Counted from the stretch's first letter, positions 23,429 to 49,275 are shown. The stretch is DNA of 49,294 nucleotides from Parcubacteria bacterium C7867-007 (GCA_001189195.1 LFCQ01000006.1:120841-170134), one strand, 5' to 3'. Notes: generated by a model from the sequence alone, not told the origin. Numbers and translations: made by a program.

Positions 23429-23437
23429 CCGGATTGA

Positions 23438-30190: not shown

Positions 30191-30457
30191 ATGAAGTTAG
30201 AAACTAAGAAGCCAATACAGAATCGTCTTCGCCGCATCGAAGGCCAGATCCGAGGCCTCCAAAAGATGGTTGAGGAAGATACGTACTGCATCGACGTCAT
30301 CACGCAGACCTCTGCCATCAAAAGCGCGCTTTCAAGCGTCGAAGATCTGTTGCTTGAGAACCATCTCGATACCTGCGCTTCTGACCAAATGAAATCTGGG
30401 AACGTCACTAAGGCAAAACAAGAGATTCTTGCGGTATATCGGCTTAAACGTAAATAA
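30191..30457 (+). CDS. csoR: CsoR family copper-sensing repressor
   Basis: 88 aa all-helical DUF156 protein. The Cu(I) ligands of CsoR are present in the expected order: Cys33 (TYCIDV), His58 and Cys62 (ENHLDTC), so it should sense Cu(I) rather than Ni(II) or formaldehyde. The start [22 protein letters not shown] contains the RRIEGQIRG family signature. It is autoregulated, judging by the palindrome in its own promoter. copA starts 2 nt after its stop, so the repressor and pump are one transcript. Confidence 0.93.
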
Positions 30458-30459
30458 AT

Positions 30460-32754: not shown

Positions 32755-32757
32755 CCC

Positions 32758-33774: not shown

Positions 33775-33788
33775 CGTATACTATTCTT

Positions 33789-34178: not shown

Positions 34179-34186
34179 CAAAAAGT

Positions 34187-34636
34187 ATGCGTTCTCAATC
34201 GATTACAACTCGAGAAAAAAAATCACGATTGCAAACTGTACTCAAGAAGTTTAGTGCAATCTTGATTGGAAGTTTTCTTACGCTTGGAATATTGCTTTGC
34301 TTTAGTTTCGTATCAGGTATCTCAAATCATTCCATAGCTGAAGTACCGGACCATTCCTGCACTTCTTCTGAAGGATCAAGCCCATGTGACTCAATCAGCG
34401 AACATATTTCATATTGGCAAACAATTTCAACGGCAGTTTTCACTGACAATTTTCTTCTACTTTTAGTTAGTGCCGCATTGTTATTTTTGTGGATTTCTCA
34501 TCGCACTAAATTTACACACAAGGGCTACGCCCTATTCCATCCGACTAAGCCGAGTATAAACCTTGGTCTGATACTCTCACGCAACCCCCTTCAAGAGGCA
34601 TTCGCATCGGGCACCATTCATAGTAAGGCTTTTTAA
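34187..34636 (+). CDS. Two-helix membrane protein with extracytoplasmic Cys pair (149 aa)
   Basis: A basic N-terminus precedes one helix (about residues 23-44), an external loop with DHSCTSSEGSSPCDS, a second helix (about 85-103), and a basic cytoplasmic tail with RNPLQEAFASG. It sits 8 nt after the cupredoxin-like gene. The Cys pair in the loop may bind copper or form a disulfide. No family recognised. Confidence 0.6.
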   Translation: MRSQSITTREKKSRLQTVLKKFSAILIGSFLTLGILLCFSFVSGISNHSIAEVPDHSCTSSEGSSPCDSISEHISYWQTISTAVFTDNFLLLLVSAALLFLWISHRTKFTHKGYALFHPTKPSINLGLILSRNPLQEAFASGTIHSKAF

Positions 34637-34676
34637 TTACACCGAGTCGTATTGATTAGCGTTAATTTAACTACTT

Positions 34677-35078
34677 ATGGACATAAAGACGAATACTAAA
34701 ATAGTAATTTCAGCAGTCGTGGGTATTATTCTGGGTGCTGGAGGTGTGATGGCCTTTTCTCAAAAGAATGAGATTGCCATGCCATCAATTTCTGGTGACG
34801 CAGTGGTTGGTCATAACACACAACAAGATCCTATGATGTCTTCACTAGCAGGAAAGAAAGGAGAGAGCTTTGATCGTGAGTTTATTATTCAGATGATTGC
34901 GCATCATCAAGGAGCAATTCAGATGGCAGAAATGGCACTTGAAACCTCAAAACGACCTGAAATTAAAGAACTTTCAACGGAAATTATCGCTGCTCAGAAG
35001 ATGGAAATTCAGAAAATGCAGGAATGGCATCTGGCGTGGTTTGGTTCGTCAGTACCAGTAACCCCTACGGGGCAATAA
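34677..35078 (+). CDS. DUF305 protein, membrane-anchored
   Basis: 133 aa. N-terminal anchor (about residues 8-27), then a DUF305 domain with FIIQMIAHHQGAIQMAEMAL and a helix EIIAAQKMEIQKMQEW. The HH and multiple Met residues are candidate metal ligands. Second DUF305 protein of the cluster, here with one anchor rather than several helices. The DsbA-like gene begins 17 nt after its stop. Confidence 0.83.
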   Translation: MDIKTNTKIVISAVVGIILGAGGVMAFSQKNEIAMPSISGDAVVGHNTQQDPMMSSLAGKKGESFDREFIIQMIAHHQGAIQMAEMALETSKRPEIKELSTEIIAAQKMEIQKMQEWHLAWFGSSVPVTPTGQ

Positions 35079-35095
35079 TTGTAGTTAACAAATGT

Positions 35096-35848
35096 ATGGA
35101 AACAGATAATAAAATAGAAGTCGCATCTGCGCTGAGTAAGTACTCAACACCAATCTCAGTGTTAGTGGGTGCAATTATTATTGCAGCTGCGCTTACTTTC
35201 GGTGATGGAAAACTTCCTCAGCAGGACGTAGCAGCGAATCCAGGCCAGGCCCAGCCAGACGCTGCGGCACTTCAAAAGCAATTAGAAAATATTGCACCTA
35301 TCACTGCTGAAGACCATATTCGAGGGAATCCAGATGCACCTGTAAAAATTGTTGAGTACTCAGATACGGAATGCCCATTCTGCAAGAGATTTCACCCTAC
35401 GATGCAACAAGTAATGAGTGAATATGGTGCAGACGGCAAAGTTGCGTGGGTGTATCGGCATTTCCCTCTTGACCAGCTTCATAAGAAGGCTAGGAAAGAA
35501 GCCATTGCGCTTGAGTGTGCTGGAGATCAAGGTGGCGATGATGCTTTCTGGAAATATACAGATCGACTCTACGAAGTGACACCCTCAAACGACGGCCTTG
35601 ATCCATCGGAACTTCCAAAGATCGCTAGTGAGGTCGGACTTAATGTCACCACCTTCAACACATGTCTTGCAAGTGGAAAGTTCGATGCACATGTTGAAGC
35701 AGACGCACAAAATGCTATTGCAACCGGCGGAAGCGGAACCCCGTGGAGTATAGTTATCGGCAAGAATGGCAAGAAGTACCCACTTTCGGGTGCCCAGCCG
35801 TATGAATCAGTAAAGCAGATAATTGACCTCGCTTCACAAGGCAAATAA
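35096..35848 (+). CDS. DsbA-like thioredoxin-fold protein, membrane-anchored
   Basis: 250 aa. One N-terminal membrane helix (about residues 19-36), a linker, then a DsbA-family domain with active site TECPFCKRF (Cys93, Cys96), a helical insertion, and the cis-Pro motif GTPWSIV (about 212). It likely oxidises or isomerises thiols of exported proteins, including the several Cys-bearing copper proteins of this cluster. An upstream in-frame codon at 35024 would start inside the previous gene and is less likely. The next gene begins 2 nt after its stop. Confidence 0.87.
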   Translation: METDNKIEVASALSKYSTPISVLVGAIIIAAALTFGDGKLPQQDVAANPGQAQPDAAALQKQLENIAPITAEDHIRGNPDAPVKIVEYSDTECPFCKRFHPTMQQVMSEYGADGKVAWVYRHFPLDQLHKKARKEAIALECAGDQGGDDAFWKYTDRLYEVTPSNDGLDPSELPKIASEVGLNVTTFNTCLASGKFDAHVEADAQNAIATGGSGTPWSIVIGKNGKKYPLSGAQPYESVKQIIDLASQGK

Positions 35849-35850
35849 AG

Positions 35851-36393
35851 ATGCTGTTCCAAGCGTTGCAAAAGGTATTGCGGAGGCCGACATACATGCT
35901 ACTTGCTCTGACGGTAAGTCTGGCGGTCTTTGCACTCGCTGTGTTACTGCCAAACGCTAGTTTAATTGGTATCATCGTCAGCTCGCCTAACATATTGCTC
36001 TCCCAAAAGCTTGGAATACCATTTAGTTTGTTAGGTTCTATTATTACTAACTTCACTATCCTTTCTGCGATCTCGACAATTGCTATCGCAACTCTGTTCG
36101 GAATAAATGTTGCCATGGTGCTTTATTTCCTGAGGCGGAAAATTAGCGAAGTAAAGAAGATCGGAATTACTACTGGGTTCTTGGGTGTTACCAGTGGGAT
36201 TATCGGCATTGGATGTGCCGCTTGCGGATCACTCCTGCTTACAAGTATTCTCTCGCTGTTCGGTGCATCAAGCATACTCGCATTCCTGCCCCTCGCAGGC
36301 GGTGAATTCGGTATCCTTGGCGTCATCTTACTCGTGATATCTGCTCACAGTATAGCCAACCAAATCCAGCATCCTGCAATCTGTAAAATTTAA
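35851..36393 (+). CDS. Membrane protein with intramembrane CxxC (180 aa)
   Basis: About five membrane helices, with GIGCAACG in the middle (about residues 120-127), a CxxC within or next to a membrane segment. It follows the DsbA-like gene by 2 nt, so the CxxC could pass electrons to or from that protein; this partner idea is inference from adjacency. It is too short for DsbB or VKOR homology and I do not recognise a named family. Confidence 0.65.
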   Translation: MLFQALQKVLRRPTYMLLALTVSLAVFALAVLLPNASLIGIIVSSPNILLSQKLGIPFSLLGSIITNFTILSAISTIAIATLFGINVAMVLYFLRRKISEVKKIGITTGFLGVTSGIIGIGCAACGSLLLTSILSLFGASSILAFLPLAGGEFGILGVILLVISAHSIANQIQHPAICKI

Positions 36394-36402
36394 CTCAACT
36401 AT

Positions 36403-36942
36403 ATGGAAAATAGTCAGCCTAATGAATATGTAAGTAGCAAAGAACGGAGAGAACGTAAACAGCAAGCAAAACTGGAAGCAAAAAATTCAGTGCTTCAAAA
36501 GCGGCGCGCAGCAAAAGTTATCCGATGGATCGGTTGGAGTTTGGTTGGCGCGGCGATTATTGGAAGTTTAGTTTGGTTCGTACTATCCCAGCCTAAGACC
36601 TCTGATTCTGAAATCATCTCTCGCACTGGTATTCACTGGCATCCGGAGCTAGAGATCTATGTCAAAGGCGCGAAGGTGGAATTTCCCGCCAATATAGGCA
36701 TTGGAGTAGCACATCAGCCTGTCCATACTCACGAAGATGCTGTAGAAGGAGTTGTACATCTTGAATTCGAAGGACTAGTTCGTAAAAGCGACACTACGCT
36801 AGGACAGTTCTTTAAGAGCTGGGGCAAAGATATTCGCTCACTTGGAGCGAATGTAACGATGACTGTCAATGGTCAGGAAAATATCGATCTTGAGAATTAT
36901 CAAATGCAGGACAAGGATGAAATTGTGTTGAGGTATGAGTAA
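36403..36942 (+). CDS. Membrane-anchored His-rich (HWHP) protein
   Basis: 179 aa. A Lys/Arg-rich cytoplasmic N-terminus (residues 1-38) precedes one membrane helix (about 41-62) and an extracytoplasmic domain starting GIHWHPELEIYVKG, with AHQPVHTHEDAVEGVVHLEFEG further on. The six clustered His residues are plausible copper ligands. The HWHP-type domain recurs in copper clusters of uncultured bacteria and archaea, but has no proven function. It lies 9 nt after the CxxC membrane protein gene. Confidence 0.7.
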   Translation: MENSQPNEYVSSKERRERKQQAKLEAKNSVLQKRRAAKVIRWIGWSLVGAAIIGSLVWFVLSQPKTSDSEIISRTGIHWHPELEIYVKGAKVEFPANIGIGVAHQPVHTHEDAVEGVVHLEFEGLVRKSDTTLGQFFKSWGKDIRSLGANVTMTVNGQENIDLENYQMQDKDEIVLRYE

Positions 36943-37001
36943 TACGGAACGACAATGCTCTCGTACTCCACTGAGTATCAAAACGCTAACAGCTTAAGAA
37001 T

Positions 37002-37778
37002 ATGAAACTGAAAAAGATAGCTTTGATTGGGCTCTTTGTTGTGCTGGTAGGAATTACAGGACTCATGCTTTTACAAAGCATGAAAAGTACTTTGGGAACG
37101 CAAACAGAGTCTCAGACTGAAGATGAGGTTGTTCTGGAAGTACCTGCACAGATAGCCGATCAAGAAGTCTTAATCAGTCGAGTTACGATGCCTAGTAACG
37201 GATGGGTTGTGGCACGGGGTATCGAAGATGGAAAACTCGGTCAGATTATAGAAATAAGCCCGTTTCTTGAAAAGGGTGAGTATAAAAAGGTAATTATTCC
37301 CCTCGGCGAATTCTATAATGGCGAAGAACTCATTGCCGTTATTTATGAGGATCAAAATGCTGACGGTATCTTCAATGGCCTCGATCTCCCCAAACTGGAT
37401 TCAAAAGGTCTTATGATAGCTCGCAGTGTAAAGACCGGAGAAGAAGTCGAAGGTCTTTCTGAGGCAGGTATGAGTGGGATGCTACATAATATGCCTGGAA
37501 TGGCAGACATGATCCAGATTCGATATACGAATACTGGCTTCGTTCCCAAGAATATTGAGGTGCCCGCAGGTTCTCTCGTTGAGTTCATTAATGAAAGTGA
37601 CCGGGAAATGTGGGTAGCATCCGATACTCATCCAACCCATGAACGACTCGCAACGTTCGACCAGTTTAGATCCTATCCTAAAGGCGGAGTGTATCGATAT
37701 CTTTTTGATAAGCCGGGAACCTGGCCGTATCACGATCACATCAGTCCAGCAGATGAGGGGATAATCACCGTACGCTAA
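37002..37778 (+). CDS. Membrane-anchored protein with C-terminal cupredoxin-like domain
   Basis: 258 aa. N-terminal helix (about residues 6-24). The middle domain (about 45-150) contains VLISRVTMPSNGWVVARGI and DQNADGIFNGLDLP, similar to the DUF7282-type extracellular domain. A Met-rich loop (GMSGMLHNMPGMADM) leads to a cupredoxin-like domain (about 170-258) with SDTHPTHERL and GTWPYHDHISP supplying several His. The Cys of a type 1 copper site is replaced by Tyr-His in WPYHDH, so copper chemistry is likely altered or it only binds metal. Confidence 0.75.
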   Translation: MKLKKIALIGLFVVLVGITGLMLLQSMKSTLGTQTESQTEDEVVLEVPAQIADQEVLISRVTMPSNGWVVARGIEDGKLGQIIEISPFLEKGEYKKVIIPLGEFYNGEELIAVIYEDQNADGIFNGLDLPKLDSKGLMIARSVKTGEEVEGLSEAGMSGMLHNMPGMADMIQIRYTNTGFVPKNIEVPAGSLVEFINESDREMWVASDTHPTHERLATFDQFRSYPKGGVYRYLFDKPGTWPYHDHISPADEGIITVR

Positions 37779-37846
37779 TAAGCCACGATAATACTTGACT
37801 TTATTACTAAATATGATAAAGTACAATTCAATTAGGATTCTAAGTT

Positions 37847-38458
37847 ATGATTTCCGCACTGAAAACAGTAGGATTCTTTATCCTAACCGCCCTTATCTTC
37901 TTACTGTCATTTGCAGTGCTATTTGCATTTGATTTGGTTCCAGAGAGCAAATCCGAACTTACAGCGAGTGCTGAAAAAGTGGTGGACGTTCCAGCTGTAG
38001 TTGAAAGGGTTGAAGAACCTGCTCGTATCGTTGCTACAGACATTGGGTTAGACGCTTCTATCGTCAACCCGACAAGCAAAGATATAGCCGTGCTGGATAA
38101 AGCGCTCCTCTCAGGAGCGGTGCGCTACCCTGAAACGGCGCTTTTGGGAGAAGATGGGACAGCACTTTTGTTTGGGCACTCCAGCTATCTGCCTTTAGTA
38201 AAAAACAAGAACTATCAAATCTTTAACGATGTTCAAGAGCTTGAGAAAGGCAATATTGTGAGCGTGTACTCAGGCACGCGCGAGTATCGCTACGAGGTGG
38301 TGAGTGTTGAGCAAGCGAAAGCAACAGCTGATCGTATCAATCTCGAACAGAATGGTCGCTTTCTGAAGCTAGTTACATGTAACACCTTCGGTGCGAAAGA
38401 AGATCGGTTTGTCGTGACCGCCAAGTTCGTTGGAGTATATGAAACACAAAGCTCTTAA
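37847..38458 (+). CDS. Class D/E-type sortase
   Basis: 203 aa. An N-terminal anchor (about residues 7-29) and a sortase domain (about 60-195). The catalytic triad is present: His111 in LLFGHSSYLP, Cys178 in LKLVTCNTF, and Arg187 in KEDRFVV. Sortases cut LPxTG-like signals and attach proteins to the wall or to each other. No LPxTG protein with a following hydrophobic segment is seen in this window, so its substrate is elsewhere or non-canonical. It follows the cupredoxin-like gene in the same direction with a separate AT-rich promoter region (37795-37827). Confidence 0.85.
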   Translation: MISALKTVGFFILTALIFLLSFAVLFAFDLVPESKSELTASAEKVVDVPAVVERVEEPARIVATDIGLDASIVNPTSKDIAVLDKALLSGAVRYPETALLGEDGTALLFGHSSYLPLVKNKNYQIFNDVQELEKGNIVSVYSGTREYRYEVVSVEQAKATADRINLEQNGRFLKLVTCNTFGAKEDRFVVTAKFVGVYETQSS

Positions 38459-38584
38459 CTTTTAAGATATATCTGTGGCGTCGGCAGGTCGGTTTCAAGG
38501 CGGAATCAACTTTGCATATTGAGTTATTAGCTTCTAAAGCAAATAACTAACTCCAGGACGTGTGATACTTTTAGTACGTAATCT

Positions 38585-39457
38585 ATGAACAGACACTCCC
38601 ACGACAGTCAGGGAAACATAAAGATTGCGCTCTTTCTCAATATTGGTTTTACGATTATTGAGCTTATCGGAGGTCTACTTACGAACAGTCTCGCTATACT
38701 CTCGGACGCGCTTCATGACTTTGGAGACACTATTGTTCTCTCGCTCGCGTGGTATGCCGAGAAGAAATCAAAGCAGGGTCCAGACGAGAAGCGCACCTAC
38801 GGGTATGCCCGACTTTCCGTATTCTCCGCACTTGTTTCAGGTGCTGTCCTAATCGGTGGTTCTCTTTTCATCATCTCTCAAGCCATTCCGCGTCTCTTAA
38901 ACCTTGAAGCAGTGAATGCGCCAGGCATGATGGTACTTGCTGTCATTGGAATTATCTTTAACGGCATTGGCGCACTTCGTTTAAAGAAGGGAGAAGGTAT
39001 CAGCGAACGAGTGCTTTCATGGCATCTCTTTGAAGACGTGTTTGGATGGACGGCGATACTTATTGGTGGCGGGTTGATCTATCTCTTCGACCTGCCGATT
39101 CTGGACCCCGTACTCACGATTGGCTTCACGCTCTTTATCCTCTGGGGAGTTATCCGCTCAATGGGAGAAGTGAGCAACATTCTGCTTGAAGGCGTACCGC
39201 AGCAGGTACACCTGAAGGCGCTCAAGACCGACATACTCCAGTTTGAGGGTATACTCGGTCTCCACGATGTCCATGTTTGGTCTCTTGAAGGCAAGACCAA
39301 TGTATTGAGTGGGCATATCATCATAAAGCCGCAGAGCGTTGATGAGGGACGAGCCATACAACAGAACGTAAAAGCCATGCTCAAGGAGAAACACGATATT
39401 GAGCATGCAACGATAGAATTGGAGACCGATGGAAGTTGCGAAGAGAAGAATTGCTAA
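38585..39457 (+). CDS. Cation diffusion facilitator (CDF) transporter
   Basis: 290 aa. Six membrane helices; SDALHDFGDT in helix 2 and SWHLFEDVFGW in helix 5 provide the H/D metal site (HxxxD pattern). The cytoplasmic domain (about 205-290) has LEGVPQQVH, LHDVHVWSLEG and HIIIKPQ, the zinc-regulated CDF C-terminal fold. N-terminal MNRHSHDSQG is a short His-containing arm. Likely exports Zn(II) or Co(II). End of the metal block. Confidence 0.92.
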   Translation: MNRHSHDSQGNIKIALFLNIGFTIIELIGGLLTNSLAILSDALHDFGDTIVLSLAWYAEKKSKQGPDEKRTYGYARLSVFSALVSGAVLIGGSLFIISQAIPRLLNLEAVNAPGMMVLAVIGIIFNGIGALRLKKGEGISERVLSWHLFEDVFGWTAILIGGGLIYLFDLPILDPVLTIGFTLFILWGVIRSMGEVSNILLEGVPQQVHLKALKTDILQFEGILGLHDVHVWSLEGKTNVLSGHIIIKPQSVDEGRAIQQNVKAMLKEKHDIEHATIELETDGSCEEKNC

Positions 39458-39519
39458 GTGCTATTTATAGGCCGTACTTAAGCCATATTCTAGTCCACAT
39501 TTCTTCATAAAAGCATCAT

Positions 39520-39547
39520 TGACCCGCCATTCTCCCACGCTATACTA
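39520..39547 (+). promoter_or_regulatory. Promoter upstream of the LysM-M23 gene
   Basis: TTGACC (39520-39525), 16-nt spacer, TATACT (39542-39547). Its transcript would begin about 39554, pass through a terminator-like hairpin (39578-39600), and reach ATG at 39606. Confidence 0.75.
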
Positions 39548-39577
39548 GTGGAACTGGTTAGATACGGTTGTACTCAA

Positions 39578-39600
39578 GAAAAGCCTATACAGGCTTTTTT
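39578..39600 (+). terminator. Terminator or attenuator hairpin ahead of the LysM-M23 gene
   Basis: AAAAGCCT pairs with AGGCTTTT around ATAC, ending in TTTTTT. It lies between the promoter at 39520-39547 and the ATG at 39606, so it could end a short RNA of about 47 nt or attenuate expression of the peptidase. Confidence 0.7.
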
Positions 39601-39605
39601 GTATT

Positions 39606-40739
39606 ATGAAGAAACGCTGAACGTCCCTTTGTTTTCCTATTTTACCTTCCAACTTTTCCACCCGTTCTATAGCTAACGCTAAGAAAAGGGGTACATACAA
39701 AGTTTATGGTTCGGTAGCAGCGGTATTCGCTCTATCTCTTTTTATACATACTGTGTCGCCACAGTCCGTGGACAGCGTCTTTCCTTTTCCACATACCGCA
39801 CATGCTCAAGGAGCAGAAGATGTAATCCTCCATGACCCTTCCATAGACCTTCTTGAGGCAGCTATAAACTCTGACCCAAACCCGGATAAGGGTGATCATG
39901 AAATGGAGGTCGCAGGAGGCATGGCGCTTCTTCCACACGGAGACCTTCCCGAAGGCGAAGCTGAAGTTTCAAGCTCGAAAGCTTCTAAACCTAAGAAGAC
40001 AGGTATTGCTATCTACACAGTGCAGGAAGGCGACTCGCTCTCTGAGATTGCTGAAGAATATGGCGTATCCACAAAGACCATTCTCTGGGCGAACGATATT
40101 CGTGATGCAAGCACCATTCGTATTGGGGATGATCTCATCATTCTTCCGGTCTCTGGGGTGCAGCATAAAGTTGCAAGCGGAGATACCCTTCAATCTATCG
40201 CCAAGAAGTATGGCTCTGACGTAAGCGATATTGCGCTCTACAACGGAATAAGCGAGTCCAAGGGGCTTATTGCAGGTTCTGAGATCATCGTACCTGGTGG
40301 TGCATTCCCCTCGGCTCCTTTAAAGAAAGTGGCGAACTCAGCTTCATCTAAGAAAAGCACTCCTGCGGCTAAGTATTCTAGTCCGTCTAGCTCATCAGGT
40401 AAGTTAGGAAACCCACTTCCAGGTGGAGTAATCACTCAGGTAAATCACGGATATAACGCTGTGGACATAGACGGAGAAACTGGAGACCCTATTTATGCTT
40501 CAGCAAGCGGCTCGGTCATCATTGCCAAGGGTGGAGGAGGATATAACGGTGGCTATGGAAATTATATCGTAATTGAGCATGGCGCAGGTGTTCAGACTCT
40601 CTACGCACATATGTCGAGTCTCGCTGTATCAGGCGGAACGGTTGATAAGGGTGAGGTTATCGGATATGTGGGGAACACGGGTAAATCAACGGGCTCGCAT
40701 CTGCATTTTGAAGTCCGCGGAGCAATTAATCCCCTATAA
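39606..40739 (+). CDS. LysM-M23 peptidoglycan endopeptidase with an in-frame TGA at codon 5
   Basis: From 39621 the frame is open to 40739. It encodes a signal-peptide-like segment (VYGSVAAVFALSLFIHT), a Gly/Glu-rich linker, two LysM domains (about 40012-40310: YTVQEGDSLSEIAEEYGV, then HKVASGDTLQSIAKKYG) and a C-terminal M23 domain. The M23 domain carries NHGYNAVDID, TLYAHMSSL and GSHLHFEVR, so the zinc and catalytic His/Asp are kept. The only upstream ATG (39606) gives ATG-AAG-AAA-CGC then TGA at 39618-39620. GTG at 39753 is the first usual start after that but would cut away most of the signal peptide. Either the gene is damaged, the TGA is a sequencing error, or initiation is non-canonical (ATT at 39639 is in frame). 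Confidence 0.7.
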
Positions 40740-41038: not shown

Positions 41039-41518
41039 ATGGATACGCCAACAGCGTCCGCAAAGAAACCTCTTCTTAAGAAGTGGTGGGTCTGGGTACT
41101 TATCGTACTCGGCATCTTTATTATCATAGGTTCGATAGGCGGCTCTGATTCTTCAAGTTCAGGAAGCCAGAGCGCGAAGGAGGAAGTGAAGGTCGAGCCA
41201 GCTCTTACGGTCACGGCTTTCAAAATGGCTGCCGAGTACAAGGAAAACGAAGTCGCTGCAGACGCAAAGTACAAGGGCAAGCTCGTCGAAATATCAGGCA
41301 GCGTAGATACCATCGGCAAAGATGTTCTCGATACGCCGTTTATCGCCTTCTCAACTGAAAATCAGTACGAGATCATCAATCGAATTCAGTGTATGTTTGG
41401 AAAGAACGATGTGGAAGTGCTCTCAAGTGTCTCCAAGGGTCAGAAGATTACCCTTCGCGGTACTGTCTCCGGTGCTCTCGGAAACATCATTGTTAAAGAT
41501 TGCGAAATCATAGAGTAG
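41039..41518 (+). CDS. Membrane-anchored OB-fold (tRNA_anti-like) protein
   Basis: 159 aa. N-terminal helix (about residues 17-35) after a basic segment, a Ser-rich linker, then an OB-fold domain (about 60-158) of the tRNA_anti-like type: AADAKYKGKLVEISGSVDTI, then KGQKITLRGTVSG and NIIVKDCEI. These domains are common in secreted or lipoprotein-like bacterial proteins of unknown role. It directly follows the structured non-coding region. Confidence 0.75.
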   Translation: MDTPTASAKKPLLKKWWVWVLIVLGIFIIIGSIGGSDSSSSGSQSAKEEVKVEPALTVTAFKMAAEYKENEVAADAKYKGKLVEISGSVDTIGKDVLDTPFIAFSTENQYEIINRIQCMFGKNDVEVLSSVSKGQKITLRGTVSGALGNIIVKDCEIIE

Positions 41519-43036
41519 CTAGAACCGGCTGTTAAATCCGAGTGGATACCACGGCCCTTCGCCATCGTCCCAGATGCTGTTTCTTCCGAGGTCGATAACA
41601 GTGATACGTGGTGTCGCTCTTCCATAGTGCTCAAGCCCATGATGGGCGAGAATCGTAAATGCATCGACTAGGTCGTCGTGCCGCTCTATGCCAAACCCTA
41701 CGAGCTGCCGGATCAGCTCCTCGCATCCATGCTTCGGGAACTTAATCTTTCCGTTCTGGATGAGCGCAGAAACCGTCATGAGTCGGGAACGTTTGTCGCC
41801 TGATACTTTTACTCCCTTGGCCCCGTATACGTCATGGGCGAGCTGGTCGAGGACCGCTTTCTGGTATCCGACCTCCTCAACCAAAATCTCGACTCGGTTG
41901 TATATCTTTTTGTTGGCGTGATACACCGCTTTGATCTGGTCGATAGTCTGCGGAAACGTAAGACGCTTGTTGATAGGGTTTGGTAGAACGTACAGACAAA
42001 ACTTATCTTCGTGCCCGCTTATGATGCCGGAGACCATCGCCGTGTAATCAGCGGTCTCTTTCTGCGAGATGGCGAGGTCGATACCTACTCCTATATCGAT
42101 AAAGTTTCGTGTTGATTCGGGAATCCCATCGTAGTAGTGAATCCAGTCAGGGTGTATGACCTGATCTTCGTCTGGGACGATATTCAGGAGGTACTCTCGC
42201 TGCCAAGCATACGGATTGCCGCTTTTCTTCCGCTCTACTTCTATATCGGCCATGGTCGGGTATTTCCCCGGCCAAGCGATCTTTTGTGATTCCGAGAGTA
42301 ATGGAAACATCTTGAATACACCTTCACGCTGACCTTCATCAATATCCTTCTTGAGATGCATCACGAGTGAATCCTCATGGAGTAGGTTTCCGATAACGAT
42401 AAGGCGCGTATTCAGTCCGCCGCCTGGTATCACTTCGCCTGTGAGCCAGTGATAGGTTTTCTGCCTTGATTCATAGGTCCGAACGGATTGCAGGTCTTCG
42501 ATGTCGTCGCAGATGATGAGATCCGGGCGATGCTGATTGTGCCGAAGTCCGCGAATACTCTGTTCCATGGACGCGACCGTAATACGTGCGCCAGTATTCG
42601 AGAATACCAAGGACGACGAACCCCATTCGTCGCTTTCTTCTTCAAAGGGCCCCAAGTCACTCTTGAGTAAAGAGTTGCTCTCAAGCTCACGCTTCAAGTT
42701 CATCATGTGCTGCTTGGCCTGAGTACGGGTTTGGAAGAACATTAGTACGAACTTCTTTTGCTGGATACCAAGAATTGACCACAGCGAGTACGAGAACGTG
42801 ACGAGCGTAGATTTACCCGAACCACGGAACGCGACGATGACGGCAAGTTTGTTCTCGCTGTCCTCGGTTATGCGGAAGATGTCTTTCTGGAACTCCGCTA
42901 TCGGGTACTGGACGTAGTGCGAGAAGTACACGTAGAAAAACATGAGGTGCGATTGCCGCGTGACGTGCTGGCGCACCGCGCGGTTCTTCGTGAGTTCCTC
43001 GAATGCATCGTCATCAAGAGGGCTGTTCTGGCTCAT
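41519..43036 (-). CDS. Phage-type terminase large subunit
   Basis: 505 aa. The ATPase domain has Walker A FRGSGKST (residues 70-77) and Walker B LIICDDIE (173-180). The C-terminal RNase H-like nuclease has GIDLAIS with a following Asp (about 315-330), EILVEEVGYQKA and HDDLVDAF near the end. All expected acidic residues seem present. It would package DNA into a phage head, but there is no portal, protease, capsid or tail gene in the window. It overlaps the small subunit gene by 23 bp, so the two are co-translated. Confidence 0.87.
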   Translation of the reverse strand: MSQNSPLDDDAFEELTKNRAVRQHVTRQSHLMFFYVYFSHYVQYPIAEFQKDIFRITEDSENKLAVIVAFRGSGKSTLVTFSYSLWSILGIQQKKFVLMFFQTRTQAKQHMMNLKRELESNSLLKSDLGPFEEESDEWGSSSLVFSNTGARITVASMEQSIRGLRHNQHRPDLIICDDIEDLQSVRTYESRQKTYHWLTGEVIPGGGLNTRLIVIGNLLHEDSLVMHLKKDIDEGQREGVFKMFPLLSESQKIAWPGKYPTMADIEVERKKSGNPYAWQREYLLNIVPDEDQVIHPDWIHYYDGIPESTRNFIDIGVGIDLAISQKETADYTAMVSGIISGHEDKFCLYVLPNPINKRLTFPQTIDQIKAVYHANKKIYNRVEILVEEVGYQKAVLDQLAHDVYGAKGVKVSGDKRSRLMTVSALIQNGKIKFPKHGCEELIRQLVGFGIERHDDLVDAFTILAHHGLEHYGRATPRITVIDLGRNSIWDDGEGPWYPLGFNSRF

Positions 43037-43421
43037 GAGGCTTAAGCGTTAAGTTCGCAAGCGACAACGCCTTATGGACGAGTTCTTTCTGCTCGTCCGA
43101 AAGTTCCTGAATTGTGTTCACGGTCCCTTCGATCTGCACTTTGGTGCGATACGAAGGATGGTTGTGTTTCAGCCATCCCATAACTGCGGTCATATTCCGG
43201 TCTTTGATAGCACCGATGAGCTGACCTTCTGCTAGATCGTTCACCATGAGTCTGCCTTCGAGCAGAGCGTCGTCCACGCTCTTTGCGAAGTCCGCATTCT
43301 CCGCTCGCCATCGGTATAAGGTCACACGGCTGATGCCGACCTTCTCGCATCCGACCTGAAGGATTGGTGTCTTGCGGAGTTGTTCAAGAAGCGCGGCTTT
43401 TGAGGCGTCCGACTTTTTCAT
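43014..43421 (-). CDS. Terminase small subunit-like DNA-binding protein
   Basis: 135 aa. N-terminal helix-turn-helix (about residues 10-40; LRKTPILQVGCEKVGISRVT then LYRWR) with a C-terminal helical segment. The fold and position before the large subunit match phage small terminase subunits that recognise the packaging site. The ATGA overlap with the methyltransferase stop (43418-43421) makes a methyltransferase, small subunit, large subunit operon. Confidence 0.8.
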   Translation of the reverse strand: MKKSDASKAALLEQLRKTPILQVGCEKVGISRVTLYRWRAENADFAKSVDDALLEGRLMVNDLAEGQLIGAIKDRNMTAVMGWLKHNHPSYRTKVQIEGTVNTIQELSDEQKELVHKALSLANLTLKPHEPEQPS

Positions 43422-44689
43422 ACCTTCACAGCCTTCTGGCCAGTTAGCCTCTCATAGCGGCGAATGATGAGATCTACGAAGATTGGCTCGCGCTCAATCA
43501 GGTATGCAGACCGCTTCAACTGCTCGCACGCAATCAAAAGACTGCCTGAACCACCAAAGCAGTCGAGGATGATGTCAGAGGGCTTGGTACAGCGCCTCAG
43601 CGCCCTCTCATGGAGCACAGGCGGCTTCTCGGTCGGGTGTTGATATCCAGTCCCATTCAGCCGCTTTACGAGCCAGATATCGAGGAGGTCATAGATGTCT
43701 TCAAGAGTCTGATTTCCCGTGCCGATCTCCTTGTTCAGGATTTCGGAGAGATTCAGCACCTTGTCCGAGAGGTACGGCTTGCCGATTGTGCCGTACACGC
43801 ACGGCTCGTACTGCTTGTTGAACGCGCTATGCGGCGTAGGTGAGGAGTTATTCTTAATCCAGAGGCACACCCGCTTGTTCGCGATGCCGGATTCCTGATA
43901 CAGGCTCTGCAAGAGCCAGATGTACCGCTGGTCGCAGTAGGTGAAAACGTGCGCGTCTTTCTTGGTAACAGCAATCGCGTTCTTGAGACAGGAAGCGAGA
44001 AATGCTTTGTATGCCTTGTCGGTGAGGGAATCATCGACAGTGCCGCCATACGACTTCTTGCCGCCTACGCCTTTGTCGTACGAAAGCCCGATGTTGTATG
44101 GCGGGTCGGTCAGGATGGTGTCGGCTTTCTTTCCGGCCATGAGTCGTGCAAACGTATCAGGGTCGGTACTGTCCCCGCAGATGAGACGGTGCGAGCCGAG
44201 CTGGTATAAATCGCCGGTCTTTGCTTTTGGTTTCTTAATCTTTGCTAACTCCTTCTCGACATCAAACTCATCATGCTCGACCTCAAGATCGTCGAAGAGA
44301 TGCGACAGATCGGTATCATCGAAGCCGCTCGCAAGCAGGGTCTCGACATCGAACTCGTCCACGAGTTTTTGCCAGTCCCAGTCTCCGTGGATACGGTTAG
44401 AACCGAGGAGGTACTGGTCGTACTCTTTCTTCGTGAGCTTGCGGTTCGGCACACGGACCGAAATAGTCTCTTTCTCGCGTCCGAGGAGTTTCAAAACCAT
44501 GAGCCGCTGGTGCCCAGCGATCACGGTGTTGTTCTTGTCGATCACAGGAAGTTCTACGAGATCGAACTTCCTGAGACTCTTCTTCAAGTCTTCGATCTGT
44601 TTTGCGCTCATAGTGCGCGGGTTTCTGATATTAGGCACAAGGTCGGCGATCTTGCGGTTCTGGGTAGTCCAGGAGAGTTTTGCTGGCAT
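43418..44689 (-). CDS. ParB-like domain fused to beta-class DNA methyltransferase
   Basis: 423 aa from MPAKLSWTTQ. The N-terminal ParB/Srx-type nuclease-like domain (about residues 11-90; IRNPRTMSAKQIEDLKKSLR, then VIAGHQRLMVLKLLG) is common in phage and plasmid methyltransferases. The catalytic domain shows DPPY (195-198) before DCFGGSGS (376-383), the motif IV then I order of beta-class N6-adenine or N4-cytosine enzymes. No restriction endonuclease partner is visible, so it is an orphan or phage-protection methyltransferase. An ATG 15 codons upstream (44734) is a possible start. Confidence 0.88.
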   Translation of the reverse strand: MPAKLSWTTQNRKIADLVPNIRNPRTMSAKQIEDLKKSLRKFDLVELPVIDKNNTVIAGHQRLMVLKLLGREKETISVRVPNRKLTKKEYDQYLLGSNRIHGDWDWQKLVDEFDVETLLASGFDDTDLSHLFDDLEVEHDEFDVEKELAKIKKPKAKTGDLYQLGSHRLICGDSTDPDTFARLMAGKKADTILTDPPYNIGLSYDKGVGGKKSYGGTVDDSLTDKAYKAFLASCLKNAIAVTKKDAHVFTYCDQRYIWLLQSLYQESGIANKRVCLWIKNNSSPTPHSAFNKQYEPCVYGTIGKPYLSDKVLNLSEILNKEIGTGNQTLEDIYDLLDIWLVKRLNGTGYQHPTEKPPVLHERALRRCTKPSDIILDCFGGSGSLLIACEQLKRSAYLIEREPIFVDLIIRRYERLTGQKAVKV

Positions 44690-44849: not shown

Positions 44850-45494
44850 TTAGGTGCGATGGATGAACACTTCGGGATTTAACATGTATCCAGATCCGCG
44901 ACGAGCGATAACAATCCGCTCCTTAATACCGAGCTGCTTCCTTGCCTCACCGTTGATGCCTTGCACCATCTTTCGTATAGCGTCCGTGCTATTACGACCG
45001 AGTTCTTCTCTCAGAGTTTCGGTAGCTATAGGCTGACGAGCACTCATTAGACGTACAAAGAGCCGTCTTCGCCCCTTGTCTTCAAACGCATATACGCGCC
45101 GCACATTAGAAACGGTCTTGGAAAGAATGGCCTGACGAGCATCAAAGGTGAGATCCGTGTCGGGAATCCGTACGGTTGTCACCAACTTAGCAGCTGTTAC
45201 CTCTGGCTTTGATTCAACCTCGGTCTGGGTAAAGATTCTGCTAGGGTATTCAACCGTTGGAATTGAATAGAAGCTCACCGACTCTCGCAGACGAGCCATT
45301 GTCTCAAGGGTAGGCCGCATAGACTCTGCCAAAGCCTGTATTGTTTTAAACATTGGCGCATATGACTCATTTATACGATCAGCTAGCTGGGTCATTTGGG
45401 CTATTGCCGGGGCAACGCGCATCATCGCTCGCTGCTGCTCTTCAAAAGCTCGCGCGAGGCTATTCTCGGAGATGGTTAGTAATGCGCCTGTCAT
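44850..45494 (-). CDS. Hypothetical protein with C-terminal winged-helix-like segment
   Basis: 214 aa. A helical, Ala/Met/Gln-rich N-terminal part (residues 1-75, likely coiled coil) precedes a Cys-free linker and a C-terminal domain (about 115-205) that resembles a winged helix used by response regulators (SNVRRVYAFEDKGRRRLFVRLM, RIVIARRGSGYML). TAATAT (45501-45506, complement) ends 6 nt before ATG. It lies upstream of the methyltransferase-terminase genes on the same strand and may regulate them; that is inference. Confidence 0.6.
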   Translation of the reverse strand: MTGALLTISENSLARAFEEQQRAMMRVAPAIAQMTQLADRINESYAPMFKTIQALAESMRPTLETMARLRESVSFYSIPTVEYPSRIFTQTEVESKPEVTAAKLVTTVRIPDTDLTFDARQAILSKTVSNVRRVYAFEDKGRRRLFVRLMSARQPIATETLREELGRNSTDAIRKMVQGINGEARKQLGIKERIVIARRGSGYMLNPEVFIHRT

Positions 45495-45578
45495 ACCTAA
45501 ATATTACGCTACATAGTGGGGATAGGGCAACGAATGTAACGCGTACAAACTGGCCCTTTGGTGTTACATTTTATATCA

Positions 45579-45665
45579 ATGAGGAACCCGTCCGACCCCC
45601 ATCGTTTTGCCGAATCTCAGATTAGCCGTAGGGCCCTTGTGGGGCTTGGTATCCTGGGGTTCTAG
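45579..45665 (+). pseudogene. 28-codon frame resembling a truncated twin-arginine signal peptide
   Basis: Reads MRNPSDPHRFAESQISRRAL then VGLGILGF and stops at TAG. ISRRALVGLGILGF resembles a Tat signal (S-R-R-x-L-V plus a hydrophobic run), but nothing follows it. It may be a relic of a secreted protein cut by the right end of the accessory region, or chance. Confidence 0.3.
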
Positions 45666-45691
45666 TCCGACCCTGCCCGCACTCAAACAGT

Positions 45692-45719
45692 CATGGCCCA
45701 CCAGAAATGGCGGGCCATG
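45692..45719 (-). terminator. 12-bp hairpin after the 45729-46013 gene
   Basis: CATGGCCCGCCA and TGGTGGGCCATG pair across a TTTC loop on the complement (one G-T pair). It lies 9 nt after the stop codon of the minus-strand gene; only a weak T-rich tail follows. Confidence 0.65.
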
Positions 45720-45728
45720 TGAATACAA

Positions 45729-46013
45729 TCAATGGTCTTTCTCGATGAGCTCTCCGGTCTGAAGAAGTGGATGCCAGGTGATGGTGTGTGACGTGGGTGT
45801 ACGCACGGTACCGTCCACAACCGAACCTTGCAGTTCAATCGCCCCATTTACATCAGGACGGCTGATGGAGAACACACTGAAGATCACCTCCTCACCATCT
45901 ACTTGAGTGAACCTGAGAAGCAGTTCTTTGGTCTTTATGTCGAGAAACCGTTCCAGCATACGGTTCAGGCCCGAACGATTAGGACCGAACTTGAGTTTTG
46001 TTTTGCGGATCAT
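45729..46013 (-). CDS. Small hypothetical protein (94 aa)
   Basis: Basic N-terminus (MIRKTKLKFGPNRSGLNRML) followed by a mostly beta, soluble sequence (ELLLRFTQVDGEEVIFSVF, DVNGAIELQGSVVDG). No Cys and no membrane helix. GGGAG (46020-46024, complement) lies 6 nt before ATG, a good Shine-Dalgarno, and a hairpin follows the stop. It is G/C-rich in third positions and is the third self-contained Shine-Dalgarno gene in the window. No family recognised. Confidence 0.65.
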   Translation of the reverse strand: MIRKTKLKFGPNRSGLNRMLERFLDIKTKELLLRFTQVDGEEVIFSVFSISRPDVNGAIELQGSVVDGTVRTPTSHTITWHPLLQTGELIEKDH

Positions 46014-46105
46014 GACCAGCTCCCGTTTTCTGGTTGAATAGTGCCCTAAGAGGCTAATAACGCAAGGAACACGAAGATGTTGGGTTGCTAGGCTACACTA
46101 GTAGC

Positions 46106-46669
46106 ATGATTTCTTCTGTGGAGTGGCTACAACTTGTATTCAGTGTTTTGTTTGTTCTTCTGGCCATTAGGTTCATTTGGGGAATGATGCGTATTGGTAC
46201 GGTATCGCCATTTATACGAACACGTACTCAAGTGGCAGAGGAAGTTGCTGCAGTATTTGGAACCCTTCCCACAGGAAGTACTCTCATTGATCCAGGGTGT
46301 GGAGATGGGCGTGTACTATTTGCTATAGCGAAACAGAATCCACACACTCACTTCATTGGTATTGAGCTTCGACTTCTTCCATACCTGCTCGCTCTGCATA
46401 AAAGGAAGAGGGAAAAGAACACAACAATTGATTTTGTACATGGGAACTTCTCTCAGCACGATCTATCCTGCGCAACACATATGTATACCTATCTGTACCC
46501 GCATGTGATGGATGACTTGCTACCAAAACTGGAAAAGGAACTGCAGCCCGGTACCCAACTCATTTCACTTGATTTCTCGTTTTCTATGAAGGAGGCAGTA
46601 CGTACCATTCCACTCTTAAGTGCTGAAGAAGGGAAGCTGGGCAGACTCTTATATGTGTATCAATTCTGA
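46106..46669 (+). CDS. Membrane-anchored class I SAM-dependent methyltransferase
   Basis: 187 aa from MISSVEWLQLV. An N-terminal membrane helix (about residues 8-27) is followed by a Rossmann-fold domain with motif I LIDPGCGDGRVLFAIAK (about 61-77), acidic GIEL (about 87-90, motif II), and DFVHGNFSQHD (motif III region). YLYPHVMDDLL is a lineage-typical motif IV-like segment. The substrate is unknown; the anchor suggests a membrane or envelope target. TACACT (46094-46099) ends 6 nt before ATG. Confidence 0.8.
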   Translation: MISSVEWLQLVFSVLFVLLAIRFIWGMMRIGTVSPFIRTRTQVAEEVAAVFGTLPTGSTLIDPGCGDGRVLFAIAKQNPHTHFIGIELRLLPYLLALHKRKREKNTTIDFVHGNFSQHDLSCATHMYTYLYPHVMDDLLPKLEKELQPGTQLISLDFSFSMKEAVRTIPLLSAEEGKLGRLLYVYQF

Positions 46670-46705
46670 TATCTAGTCATATATAGCTAGACAGATTAAG
46701 CCGTG

Positions 46706-46733
46706 TTGCCCTTTGCGTACAGGTACGTATACT
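46706..46733 (+). promoter_or_regulatory. Promoter of the small acidic protein gene
   Basis: TTGCCC (46706-46711), 16-nt spacer, TATACT (46728-46733). The transcript would start near 46741 and carry a leader of about 68 nt. Confidence 0.65.
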
Positions 46734-46754
46734 GAGACTATCGGTCGAATCATT

Positions 46755-46793
46755 GCCAGCCAACCCTGGGCTGGCCTTTGCCTTTCAAAGGCC
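46755..46793 (+). promoter_or_regulatory. Two mutually exclusive hairpins in the leader of the small acidic protein gene
   Basis: GCCAGCC (46755-46761) can pair with GGCTGGC (46769-46775), while GGCCTTT (46773-46779) can pair with AAAGGCC (46787-46793). Both stems need bases 46773-46775, so only one can form fully. This is the layout of a simple RNA switch or sRNA target; no ligand is known. Confidence 0.5.
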
Positions 46794-46808
46794 TCCCGAA
46801 AAACACCT

Positions 46809-46949
46809 ATGATTGAAGATGAAATCAAGCCTGTAGATGGAGAGGAAACTACTCCTGACATGGCAGAAGACGCTGAAGTTGTTGCTGAGGAAACTCCAGC
46901 AGTAGCAGAGGAGGGAATGGATAAGGGCGATGAGGAGGTTGTTGCGTAA
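46809..46949 (+). CDS. Small acidic protein (46 aa)
   Basis: Reads MIEDEIKPVDGEETTPDMAE and continues with Glu/Ala/Val repeats (EVVAEETPAVAEEG), giving a strongly negative, probably disordered peptide. It has a promoter with a structured 68-nt leader and a strong palindromic terminator, which suggests that it is expressed as its own unit. No Shine-Dalgarno is visible. Function unknown. Confidence 0.6.
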   Translation: MIEDEIKPVDGEETTPDMAEDAEVVAEETPAVAEEGMDKGDEEVVA

Positions 46950-46969
46950 GCACTTCAACTCACACCCAC

Positions 46970-47009
46970 ATATAAAAACACCGCGAGCATGCTCGCGGTG
47001 TTTTTATAT
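46970..47009. terminator. Perfect 40-nt palindrome, bidirectional terminator
   Basis: The two 20-nt halves are exactly complementary; the core is CACCGCGAGCATGCTCGCGGTG, flanked by AAAAA and TTTTT. It separates the small acidic protein gene from the convergent trxB. Confidence 0.92.
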
Positions 47010-47016
47010 ATACCCG

Positions 47017-47940
47017 CTACTGCATCTTCACCCAGAGGTATATATCCTCAAGAGCCTTCACGGCATCCCCTGCAGCAATGTTGTTCTGATGATAGAGCTC
47101 ATCGGTACAATCCCCTGCAGCCCAGATACCCTCTACGCTTGTGTGCTGATTCTTAGGATCCGTTACGATACGTCCCACAGGATCAAGATCCACAAGACCT
47201 GCTGCAAAGCTCGTGCTTGGCATCACTCCGATTTCCACAAATACACCAGAGACAGGCAGAGTGGTTTCAACGCCGGTGGTACGCTCTTTGATCACAAGAC
47301 CTGTTACAAACTTCTCACCCTTGATCTCAATTGGTTCACTGTTGCAGATAGCCTTCATGTTCGGATGTGCTAGCACTTTTTCAATGGTGATAGCGTCACC
47401 CTTAAGCTCTCCATGGCGATGGATAAGGGTTACTGACTTCGCATACGCGAGGAGCTGTGCGGCAGTCTCAAGCCCTGCGTTTCCACCACCCACCACCGCA
47501 ACATCCATGCCCGAAAAAAGAGGACCGTCACAAGAAGCACAGTATGTGAGACCTTTATGCTCAAAGGTTTCAGCACCAGGAACCTGTAGTTTGCGACGTG
47601 ATGCACCTGAAGCAATGAGTACGGCTTTTGCATCAAACGCATCTCCTTTCGCTGTTACTGCACGGAATCCACCAGCAATCTTTTCAAGCATCGCAACATT
47701 AGAGCCTTCGTGAATAGAAACCACATCACCTGCATATGTCTCAAGGTGTTTCTTAAGAGACTTCTTTAAATCTTCCCCTGAGATAACGGGAGTACCAATC
47801 CAGTTCTCGATGCCCTCAGAAACGATAGATTGGCCTCCAAACTCTTCTGTTATAAGAACACTGCTAAGACGCTTACGCGCCGCATATACGCCTGCAGCAA
47901 CGCCTGCAGGTCCCCCTCCAATGATGATCAAGTCTTTCAT
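47017..47940 (-). CDS. trxB: Thioredoxin reductase
   Basis: 307 aa flavoprotein. The FAD-binding GGGPAGVAAGVYAARK is at the N-terminus, the redox-active CASC (Cys134, Cys137) is in the middle, followed by the NADPH-binding GGGNAGLETAAQL (about 151-163) and GIWAAGDCTDE near the C-terminus. It reduces thioredoxin-like proteins using NADPH; here it could recycle the glutaredoxin at 12581. TATACT (47947-47952, complement) ends 6 nt before ATG. Confidence 0.95.
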   Translation of the reverse strand: MKDLIIIGGGPAGVAAGVYAARKRLSSVLITEEFGGQSIVSEGIENWIGTPVISGEDLKKSLKKHLETYAGDVVSIHEGSNVAMLEKIAGGFRAVTAKGDAFDAKAVLIASGASRRKLQVPGAETFEHKGLTYCASCDGPLFSGMDVAVVGGGNAGLETAAQLLAYAKSVTLIHRHGELKGDAITIEKVLAHPNMKAICNSEPIEIKGEKFVTGLVIKERTTGVETTLPVSGVFVEIGVMPSTSFAAGLVDLDPVGRIVTDPKNQHTSVEGIWAAGDCTDELYHQNNIAAGDAVKALEDIYLWVKMQ

Positions 47941-47958
47941 GTACGAAGTATAGCAATG

Positions 47959-47990
47959 TAAAAGAAAAGCGCCCTGTGGAGGGCGCGTTT
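47959..47990 (-). terminator. Intrinsic terminator of ftsZ
   Basis: GCGCCCT pairs with AGGGCGC around a 4-nt loop (47969-47986) and is followed on the complement by TTTTCTTTT. It starts right after the ftsZ stop codon and lies upstream of trxB. Confidence 0.88.
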
Positions 47991-47991
47991 C

Positions 47992-49275
47992 TTATTTCTT
48001 GTGGCGGCGGAGGAAGCTTGGAATGGCACCCCAGGCGTCATCCTCATCCTCTATAACAGGAGGAGTGATAGGTTGTGCTGTGTCGCGTACCTTTGGCATT
48101 GCAGTAACTATAGGTTCTTCACGTTCACGGCGAGGAGGAAGGATAGGACCTTCGTCACTAACAGGTTCAGGCATCGGGGTTGGAAGGGGCACTACTGGTT
48201 CCTCACGGCGACCAAGTACGTCATTGAAAATCTTTCCACGACTCTCCTCCTGTTCCTTTGCAGGCATGGTGAAGAGAGAACGTTCGAAACCTCCGCTAAA
48301 TGCGCTTCCGCCATCCTGTTCTGGGAATCCTGTAGCGATAACAATGATGCGGATCTGGCCCTTCTTGAGTTTCTCATCGCGCATGATACCGAAGATAACC
48401 TTTGCTGTTTTATCAACGGACTCACCGATAACCTTAGCTGCTTCCTGCACCTCAAGGATACCCAGATCCTCAGAGCCTGCGACCACGAAGAGGATACCCT
48501 TAGCACCCGTGATAGAGACGTCGAGAAGTGGGGAATTAACCGCAGCTGCTGCAGCATCCTTTGCTCGGTTGTCGCCATCGGCAATACCAATACCCATGAG
48601 TGCTGGACCTGCACCCTCCATAATTGCTTTGATGTCGTTAAAGTCTGTATTGATTTCACCGGGAGTGGTGATGATATCTGAAACACCTTCCACTGCCTGA
48701 CGAAGGATTTCATCACAGAGTGCAAATGCATTCTTAGCAGATGTCTGTGCTTCTACAATTGAAAGAAGTTTGTCGTTTGGAATGATGAGATACGCATCCA
48801 CCTCCTTCTTAAGAAGTGCGAGACCATGTTCAGCGATTTCAGTGCGCTGCTGACCCTCGAAGGTGAAGGGCTTTGTTACAACAGCAACAGTGAGAGCACC
48901 GAGCTCCTTTGCAATCTTTGCAACAACACCCGCTGCACCGGTTCCGGTACCTCCACCCATACCGCAGGTGATGAAGACCATGTCTGAACCCTGGAGTGCT
49001 TCCTGGATTTCCTGACGAGTCTCATCTGCCGCACGGCGACCGAGTTCAGGATTCATGCCTGCACCCAGACCACGGGTCAGATTCTTGCCAATATGGATCT
49101 TTCGCTTTGCGAGGCTACGGTGTAGATCCTGGGCATCAGTGTTGATAGCGATGAATTCTACGCCCTTAACCTTGGAGTTGATCATGTGATTCACAGCATT
49201 GTTGCCAGAACCACCAACACCCACCACACGAATGCGGGCGAAGGTTTCTATTTCAGGAGTAACGCGCTTGGACAT
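47992..49275 (-). CDS. ftsZ: Cell division GTPase FtsZ
   Basis: 427 aa. The tubulin-like GTPase domain (residues about 10-320) has [14 protein letters not shown], the GTP-binding [11 protein letters not shown] (about 109-119), and [15 protein letters not shown] with the catalytic Asp. A Pro/Glu-rich linker (about 345-412) leads to the conserved C-terminal peptide [13 protein letters not shown], which would bind FtsA-type or SepF-type membrane anchors. It forms the division ring. The upstream part of the operon lies outside the window. Confidence 0.97.

Follow-up and report, generated by a model that had tools for sequence, protein, structure and literature searches.

A packaging operon at one end of an integrated element in C7867-007

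The window analysed here, a stretch of 49,294 nt from the genome of Parcubacteria bacterium C7867-007 (LFCQ01000006.1:120841-170134), carries three overlapping genes that encode a ParB-domain N6/N4 DNA methyltransferase (MTase), a small terminase (TerS) and a large terminase (TerL) (Table 1). The overlaps of 4 nt (MTase/TerS) and 23 nt (TerS/TerL), as well as the gene positions, are those of the original prediction, which had been made from the DNA sequence alone, and its statement that the catalytic motifs are intact also holds. The MTase has a ParB-like N-terminus and displays the motifs DPPY and CFGGSG. TerL combines the features expected of a large terminase, namely a Walker A/B ATPase and the acids of an RNase H-like nuclease: Walker A (FRGSGKST) and Walker B (LIICDDIED) are both intact and conserved, and D320, E387 and D454/D455/D458 are present and conserved in the nuclease. 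Its two-domain AlphaFold model matches solved large terminases (8dgc, 1.9e-16; D6E, T4 gp17, HK97). Sequence support for TerS is weaker than for TerL (ca. 1e-8 with PHROG) and a PDB sequence search gave no meaningful match; the protein is a member of a conserved helix-turn-helix (HTH) family and its AlphaFold fold resembles phage small terminases in BFVD (1e-4) and, weakly, in the PDB, where Foldseek matched the model to Sf6 TerS and phBC6A51, both with E>0.4.

These three genes are one end of a ca. 22-kb integrated element that reaches beyond the coordinates of the operon itself. At the other end, 15 kb beyond TerL and on the same strand, lies a large serine recombinase gene whose product has all three domains of this class (Resolvase, Recombinase and zinc ribbon) above the Pfam cut-off, and beyond it a tRNA-Ser(CGA); both had been overlooked in the original prediction, of which the three-gene unit is otherwise confirmed. 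The element is located between this tRNA and trxB-ftsZ. The order tRNA-Ser...trxB-ftsZ is kept in the 18 congener loci inspected, the distance from tRNA-Ser to ftsZ being 24.6 kb in C7867-007 versus 1.4-5 kb in many congeners and up to ca. 12 kb in some. The gene at the right flank (46085-46669) also adjoins trxB-ftsZ in congener G021 and is thus chromosomal, whereas the 214-aa gene upstream of the MTase is placed inside the element because six others have a homologue at this position. The limits of the element, from ca. 23431 to 45495-46085, follow from the tRNA-Ser/ftsZ distance, this flank gene and the recurrence of the 214-aa gene. A tRNA-like stretch at +45652 was considered as right attachment (att) site and was not convincing.

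In congener G021, the sequence found right after tRNA-Ser is near-identical to that of the window (L246:891-2149, coordinates on the tRNA-Ser-plus strand) and contains a 393-aa nuclease-like gene, Shedu-like by eye, pointing to an insertion hotspot common to both genomes.

Table 1. Coordinates of features in the window and, for named loci, in related elements (values are E-values of Pfam or PHROG matches)
Feature	Position	Strand	Evidence and remarks
tRNA-Ser(CGA)	23342-23430	plus	ARAGORN; 3' end towards element; probable left attachment site
Integrated element, ca. 22 kb	23431 to ca. 45700 (right end bracketed 45495-46085)		locus distance versus congeners
DUF4238 protein, cargo	23538-24779	plus	PF14022 1.1e-15; between recombinase and tRNA
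Large serine recombinase (integrase)	25184-26506	minus	440 aa; Resolvase 7.2e-18, Recombinase 6.2e-15, Zn_ribbon_recom 4e-8; phrog_95 1e-62
458-aa protein	26913-28289	plus	family in 11 other elements (phmmer); no Pfam/PHROG match
Cargo block	30191-40739	plus
CsoR-like regulator (cargo block)	30191-30457	plus
Copper-type P-type ATPase (cargo block)	30460-32754	plus
LysM-M23 peptidase (cargo block)	39753-40739	plus
DsbA-like protein, sortase-domain protein, cation-diffusion-type transporter (cargo block)	within 30191-40739	plus
OB-fold (tRNA_anti-like) membrane protein, superinfection-exclusion-like	41039-41518	plus	PF12869 1.3e-22, phrog_8545 2.6e-25; convergent with TerL
TerL	41519-43036	minus	505 aa; phrog_38 2.7e-75, Terminase_6C 2.6e-10; ATPase and RNase H-like nuclease
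TerS	43014-43421	minus	135 aa; phrog_4044 2.2e-8, phrog_309 3.6e-8; HTH and helical oligomerisation region
ParB-domain N6/N4 MTase	43418-44689	minus	423 aa; N6_N4_Mtase 5.8e-30 (Pfam), phrog_498 1.3e-97
214-aa protein, no family assigned	44850-45494	minus	directly upstream of MTase
Right junction zone	45495-46085		exact att site bracketed only; flank comparison, repeat search
Chromosomal right flank	46085-49275		methyltransferase-like gene 46085-46669, trxB 47017-47940, ftsZ 47992-49275; adjoins tRNA-Ser in congeners
Diversity-generating retroelement (DGR), L022	2603-4037
DGR, L069	6569-8019
DGR, L073	11520-13508
DGR, L089	11632-13058

A family of related elements across Patescibacteria

A TerL profile search returned 293 related stretches in contigs representing one genome per species and 294 in IMG/VR, and the best 80 of each were analysed. 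The 153 dereplicated full-length TerLs were sorted by their neighbouring genes, with 119 of the element type and 29 in portal-bearing phages, in a comparison set that is biased towards TerLs having conserved peptides in common with that of the window and for which gene calls were mechanical; L040 and L041 (21-26% identity) were handled as unrelated or distant. The three-gene cluster that the original prediction proposed to look for in other Patescibacteria thus recurs in 119 loci, the MTase being found upstream of TerL in 114 and the TerS family in 113. This TerS family occurs in none of the 29 portal-bearing phages, and the same is true for the recombinase family, which is found downstream of TerL in 83 elements overall. 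When only loci with at least 8 kb downstream are taken into account, the recombinase follows TerL on the same strand in 51 of 64, at less than 300 bp in 40. A single change in the TerL tree suffices to separate the recombinase elements from the portal-bearing phages.

The elements occur in Parcubacteria and in the Zambryski-, Kaiser-, Taylor-, Falkow-, Moran-, Uhr-, Woese-, Doudna-, Berkel-, Gracili-, Peregrini- and Dojkabacteria; a small number of short contigs fall in other bins and may be mis-binned. The presence of the elements is sporadic, ca. 13 of 93 congeners carrying one, and as many as three copies may occupy separate loci of a genome (two or three in G042, G024 and G025). For TerL pairs in which synonymous changes are unsaturated, omega is ca. 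0.02-0.13, so that purifying selection on TerL in these relatives is strong. Frameshifts of the terminase in all relatives would, according to the original prediction, have refuted it; TerL is unbroken in relatives apart from two ATPase-only versions. These two (L037:9610-10611 and L038:9627-10685) have no nuclease domain and no nuclease remnant downstream, which may reflect decay or another use.

Many of the IMG/VR loci (L021-L024, L122-L151) are catalogued as viral yet are capsid-less elements: terminase-based virus finders label such elements as phages, and dozens are present within IMG/VR.

Structural genes are confined to a separate clade of phages

Neither portal, protease nor capsid genes were found in the ca. 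22-kb element of the window. Matches to the PF04860 portal and PF05065 capsid models were absent from the whole 702-kb genome of C7867-007 (99% complete) and from 11 other element-bearing genomes, control models having matched in each case, and no portal, protease or capsid match occurred in any of the 86 element loci with at least 3 kb downstream. The structural-gene hidden Markov models were seeded from one phage family, with the Pfam portal/capsid models and PHROG scans as independent checks; the pooled PHROG and Pfam cargo scans cover the best 25 families by frequency, so that a structural match in one cargo protein could escape. A tail-protein PHROG match in L095 was weak and partial and was taken as a shared-domain match. 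For the ca. 22-kb region, the initial claim that it has no portal, protease, capsid or tail gene is borne out. Structural genes were indeed found beside related TerLs, a situation that the original prediction regarded as adverse, but only in a separate true-phage TerL clade (38-46% identity). Such phages occur in the same hosts and include, within the same genus, G034 and L036, the latter with portal, protease, capsid and tail genes; compatible helper phages thus plausibly exist.

Integration next to tRNA genes

The limits of five elements are set by exact direct repeats which overlap a tRNA 3' end or adjoin it: 18 nt at tRNA-Gln in L032 (13.6 kb), 15 nt at tRNA-Ser in L045 (15.7 kb), 29 nt at tRNA-His in L073 (18.8 kb), 18 nt at tRNA-Asn in L095 (12.6 kb) and 24 nt at tRNA-Ser in L097 (9.6 kb), the reversed-query control giving at most 14 nt. 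In addition, the first tRNA encountered past the recombinase turns its 3' end towards the element in all 24 loci concerned and is a tRNA-Ser in 13. The bounded elements therefore range from 9.6 to 18.8 kb, and that of the window, with ca. 22 kb, is slightly over the 7-20 kb range of satellites. Mobility and tRNA targeting of these elements are well supported. A larger structure, found in G025:C3 (ca. 37972-75369; L253, L029 and L260), is a 37-kb composite delimited by a 33-nt tRNA-Met repeat; it contains two recombinases and one TerL, which suggests tandem accretion of elements.

Some elements carry two serine recombinase genes, as in L045 (5200-6465 and 15819-17159), and a longer recombinase type is present in L107:10760-14229 as two adjacent genes (576 and 582 aa).

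Regulation and cargo

A LexA/S24-type repressor gene is located upstream on the opposite strand in 22-24 loci, about a quarter (Peptidase_S24 up to 9e-24). A divergent repressor is the classical layout of an inducible switch.

Among the matches listed for 51 elements, the cargo consists mainly of restriction-modification genes (type I, IIG, ResIII helicases), reverse transcriptases and metal P-type ATPases. DGRs were detected in or beside elements at 15 loci at least, with the typical signature of template and variable repeats that differ almost only at A and of a variable repeat that ends near the stop of the target gene. They lie between TerL and the recombinase in L022, L069, L073 and L089, of which L073 is att-bounded, while that of L032 is outside the bounded element; further DGR loci include L063, L067, L071, L098 and L148. 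In L063, L069 and L089, the diversified gene lies 21-205 nt past TerL, at the position of the portal in phage. Patescibacteria DGRs may therefore be linked to these elements.

In the window, the cargo block, which is of the copper type, was assigned by P-type ATPase/HMA matches in the pooled cargo scan and by Pfam for the sortase and M23/LysM domains; the CsoR-like, DsbA-like and cation-diffusion-type products are what we take them to be from reading their sequences. P-type ATPase homologues are found within or close to several further elements (e.g. L034, L049, L065, L070), and OB-fold superinfection-exclusion-like proteins tend to sit just past TerL in several others. The LysM-M23 cell-wall peptidase, which has a related gene in one other element (L061), is a possible exit or entry factor. 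Finally, ca. 24 kb separate TerL and recombinase in L031/L252 (G042:C7, ca. 122.6-149 kb), where the cargo opens with genes that by eye are acyl-CoA-ligase- and ketosynthase-like and is possibly a biosynthetic cluster.

Proposed mode of life and alternatives

The data establish, or strongly support, the existence of sporadic, multi-copy, tRNA-integrated elements that bear a recombinase, maintain a packaging module and have no shell genes. We propose, with a probability of about two in three, that they are a phage-satellite-like family with a complete terminase that would fill the procapsids of helper phages. Of the three suggestions made in the original prediction, the satellite-like integrative element is the one retained, on the basis of the recombinase, the tRNA-linked sites, the occupied versus empty locus, the more than 100 relatives without structural genes and the selection acting on TerL. 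A plasmid-like element is not supported, no replicon having been seen and the elements being chromosomal, and the sporadic presence in congeners, with copies at different loci, makes a domesticated host cassette unlikely. According to a review, the presence of terminase genes on an element suggests that phages mobilise it (PMC11389934).

Integration by the serine recombinase beside a tRNA 3' end, often that of tRNA-Ser, is strongly supported, and excision by the same route is presumed. In the relatives that have one, the divergent LexA/S24-type repressor may govern the packaging operon, a layout suggestive of induction via DNA damage or an incoming phage. The ParB-MTase would mark or protect the DNA of the element, and TerS, which being specific to these elements implies a recognition site of their own, would bind a pac/cos-like site. 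TerL would then dock on the portal of helper-phage procapsids and fill them with element DNA, and the resulting particles would carry the element and its cargo into new Patescibacteria.

Several observations weigh against this scenario. No pac/cos site came up, no motif search aimed at one having been made, and no right-end direct repeat was recovered for the window element, the best local match being not significant (107 of 300 shuffles equal). Circular forms, sought via terminal repeats, were not found except for a 44-nt end match in L107 that lies in a repeated coding motif and is no proof of a circle. The LexA/S24 repressor does not occur in the window element, and no conserved primase or replication initiator was seen among the elements, though most satellites have a replication module. 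Portal and capsid searches in the congeners that carry an element revealed no helper prophage residing there; since none of these congeners has such a portal, an infecting phage would have to act as helper.

The lack of a resident helper, like that of a pac site, would equally fit a real integrative element whose terminase has another use, for instance in decoying infecting phages or interfering with them, or in cutting and translocating element DNA when it is transferred otherwise, e.g. by natural competence. The ATPase-only TerLs of L037 and L038 and the large share of anti-phage genes in the cargo point in the same direction, and a satellite moved by natural competence has been published (PMC13376191). 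We nevertheless regard such a use as rather unlikely, since TerS, TerL and MTase are kept in canonical phage order in more than 100 elements, with intact motifs and strong purifying selection. Since phage packaging modules usually have MTase-TerS-TerL at their left end, and since related TerLs are found in true phages, the elements might also be remnants of tailed prophages that lost their structural genes through decay. This was rejected on the TerL tree, of which the elements occupy one side, and on the structural-gene negatives (0/86), and is highly improbable given a gene set shared by 119 loci of many lineages, the TerL omega values and TerS and recombinase families that do not occur in the sister phages. 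Finally, a complete virus with structural genes too divergent for detection, a gene-transfer agent or a domesticated host packaging cassette is scarcely credible: no function is assigned to 87% of PHROG families, nor to several of the genes conserved among the elements, yet the smallest att-bounded element (L097) contains nothing but MTases, TerS, TerL, the recombinase and a few small genes, interior genes among the matches listed are mainly of restriction-modification, reverse transcriptase and metal transport, and sporadic distribution with several copies per genome is unlike a domesticated host system.

Implications for gene exchange

Patescibacteria genomes are tiny. An integrative element that is common and brings a packaging motor offers a concrete and testable route of gene exchange for these bacteria, in which such exchange is frequent (PMC12455944) and conjugation relaxases are few, with 109 in 103 genomes (PMC12102498). 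Patescibacteria-restricted DGRs have been classed as cellular, the role of their targets being not known (PMC8144416); their frequent location on the elements described here suggests that the latter spread them. A more far-reaching proposition is that of a phylum-wide family which brings its own TerS, TerL and MTase and no shell, takes only empty procapsids and tails from the helper and is a major vehicle for defence, metal resistance and DGRs, and here we consider the odds to be evenly balanced. If true, the elements would be major spreaders of these functions where conjugative relaxases are rare. Integrative elements of this kind would also be a missing intermediate linking satellites that depend on the terminase of their helper to those that build their own heads. 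This raises the question of whether a foreign terminase loads the procapsid of a helper.

Comparison with known systems

In the open-licence literature searched, no published description of capsid-less elements with their own terminase was found, and the available parts of papers on gene exchange, secretion systems and phages of Patescibacteria do not mention any. Satellites are generally defined by an integrase between att repeats, no structural genes, a size of ca. 7-20 kb, regulatory and replication modules and the packaging of their DNA in helper-phage particles (PMC13376191, PMC11389934). The elements are called satellite-like because integrase, att sites, size and the absence of structural genes fit, a recognised replication module being the exception and the use of helper particles being proposed. 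The integrase and att sites are documented by the five tRNA-bounded elements; in the window, they rest on the tRNA at the left end and on the comparison with empty sites.

The elements resemble Staphylococcus aureus pathogenicity islands (SaPI) and other phage-inducible chromosomal islands (PICIs) as chromosomal islands of the 7-20 kb scale with an integrase, att repeats, their own TerS, accessory genes and no structural genes. However, PICIs take the TerL of the helper whereas the elements carry their own with intact motifs, and they further differ by a serine recombinase (usually tyrosine in PICIs), an MTase in the operon, no recognised primase or replication module and Patescibacteria hosts. 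Capsid-forming PICIs (cf-PICIs) and the Streptomyces satellites Mulch and Flayer encode a terminase together with head genes, while P4 uses the P2 terminase (PMC10690885). The former have both terminase subunits, as do the elements, but also a portal and a capsid, and need a helper for tails or less, whereas the elements are without portal, protease and capsid; P4 relies on the large terminase of its helper, whereas the elements bring both subunits. Phage-inducible chromosomal minimalist islands (PICMIs) seem to depend on a packaging motif only (PMC11389934), a source that also names tycheposons and virion-encapsidated integrative mobile elements (VEIMEs).

In Vibrio cholerae, a large serine recombinase drives the excision of the anti-phage island PLE (phage-inducible chromosomal island-like element; PMC6002521). 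The elements have the same type of recombinase, and no PLE-like gene content was recognised in them. We know of no PLE that encodes a terminase pair. Tycheposons and VEIMEs are marine satellites, tRNA-associated and cargo-carrying, that are thought to move in phage particles and that have another recombinase type and other hosts; they share tRNA association and cargo with the elements. Patescibacteria phages of the L036 type have a homologous TerL and ParB/MTase genes nearby as in the elements, but in these phages portal, protease and capsid follow TerL and the TerS and recombinase families are not present. Having a complete terminase but neither portal nor capsid, the elements thus fit neither the PICI, cf-PICI, P4 nor PICMI type.

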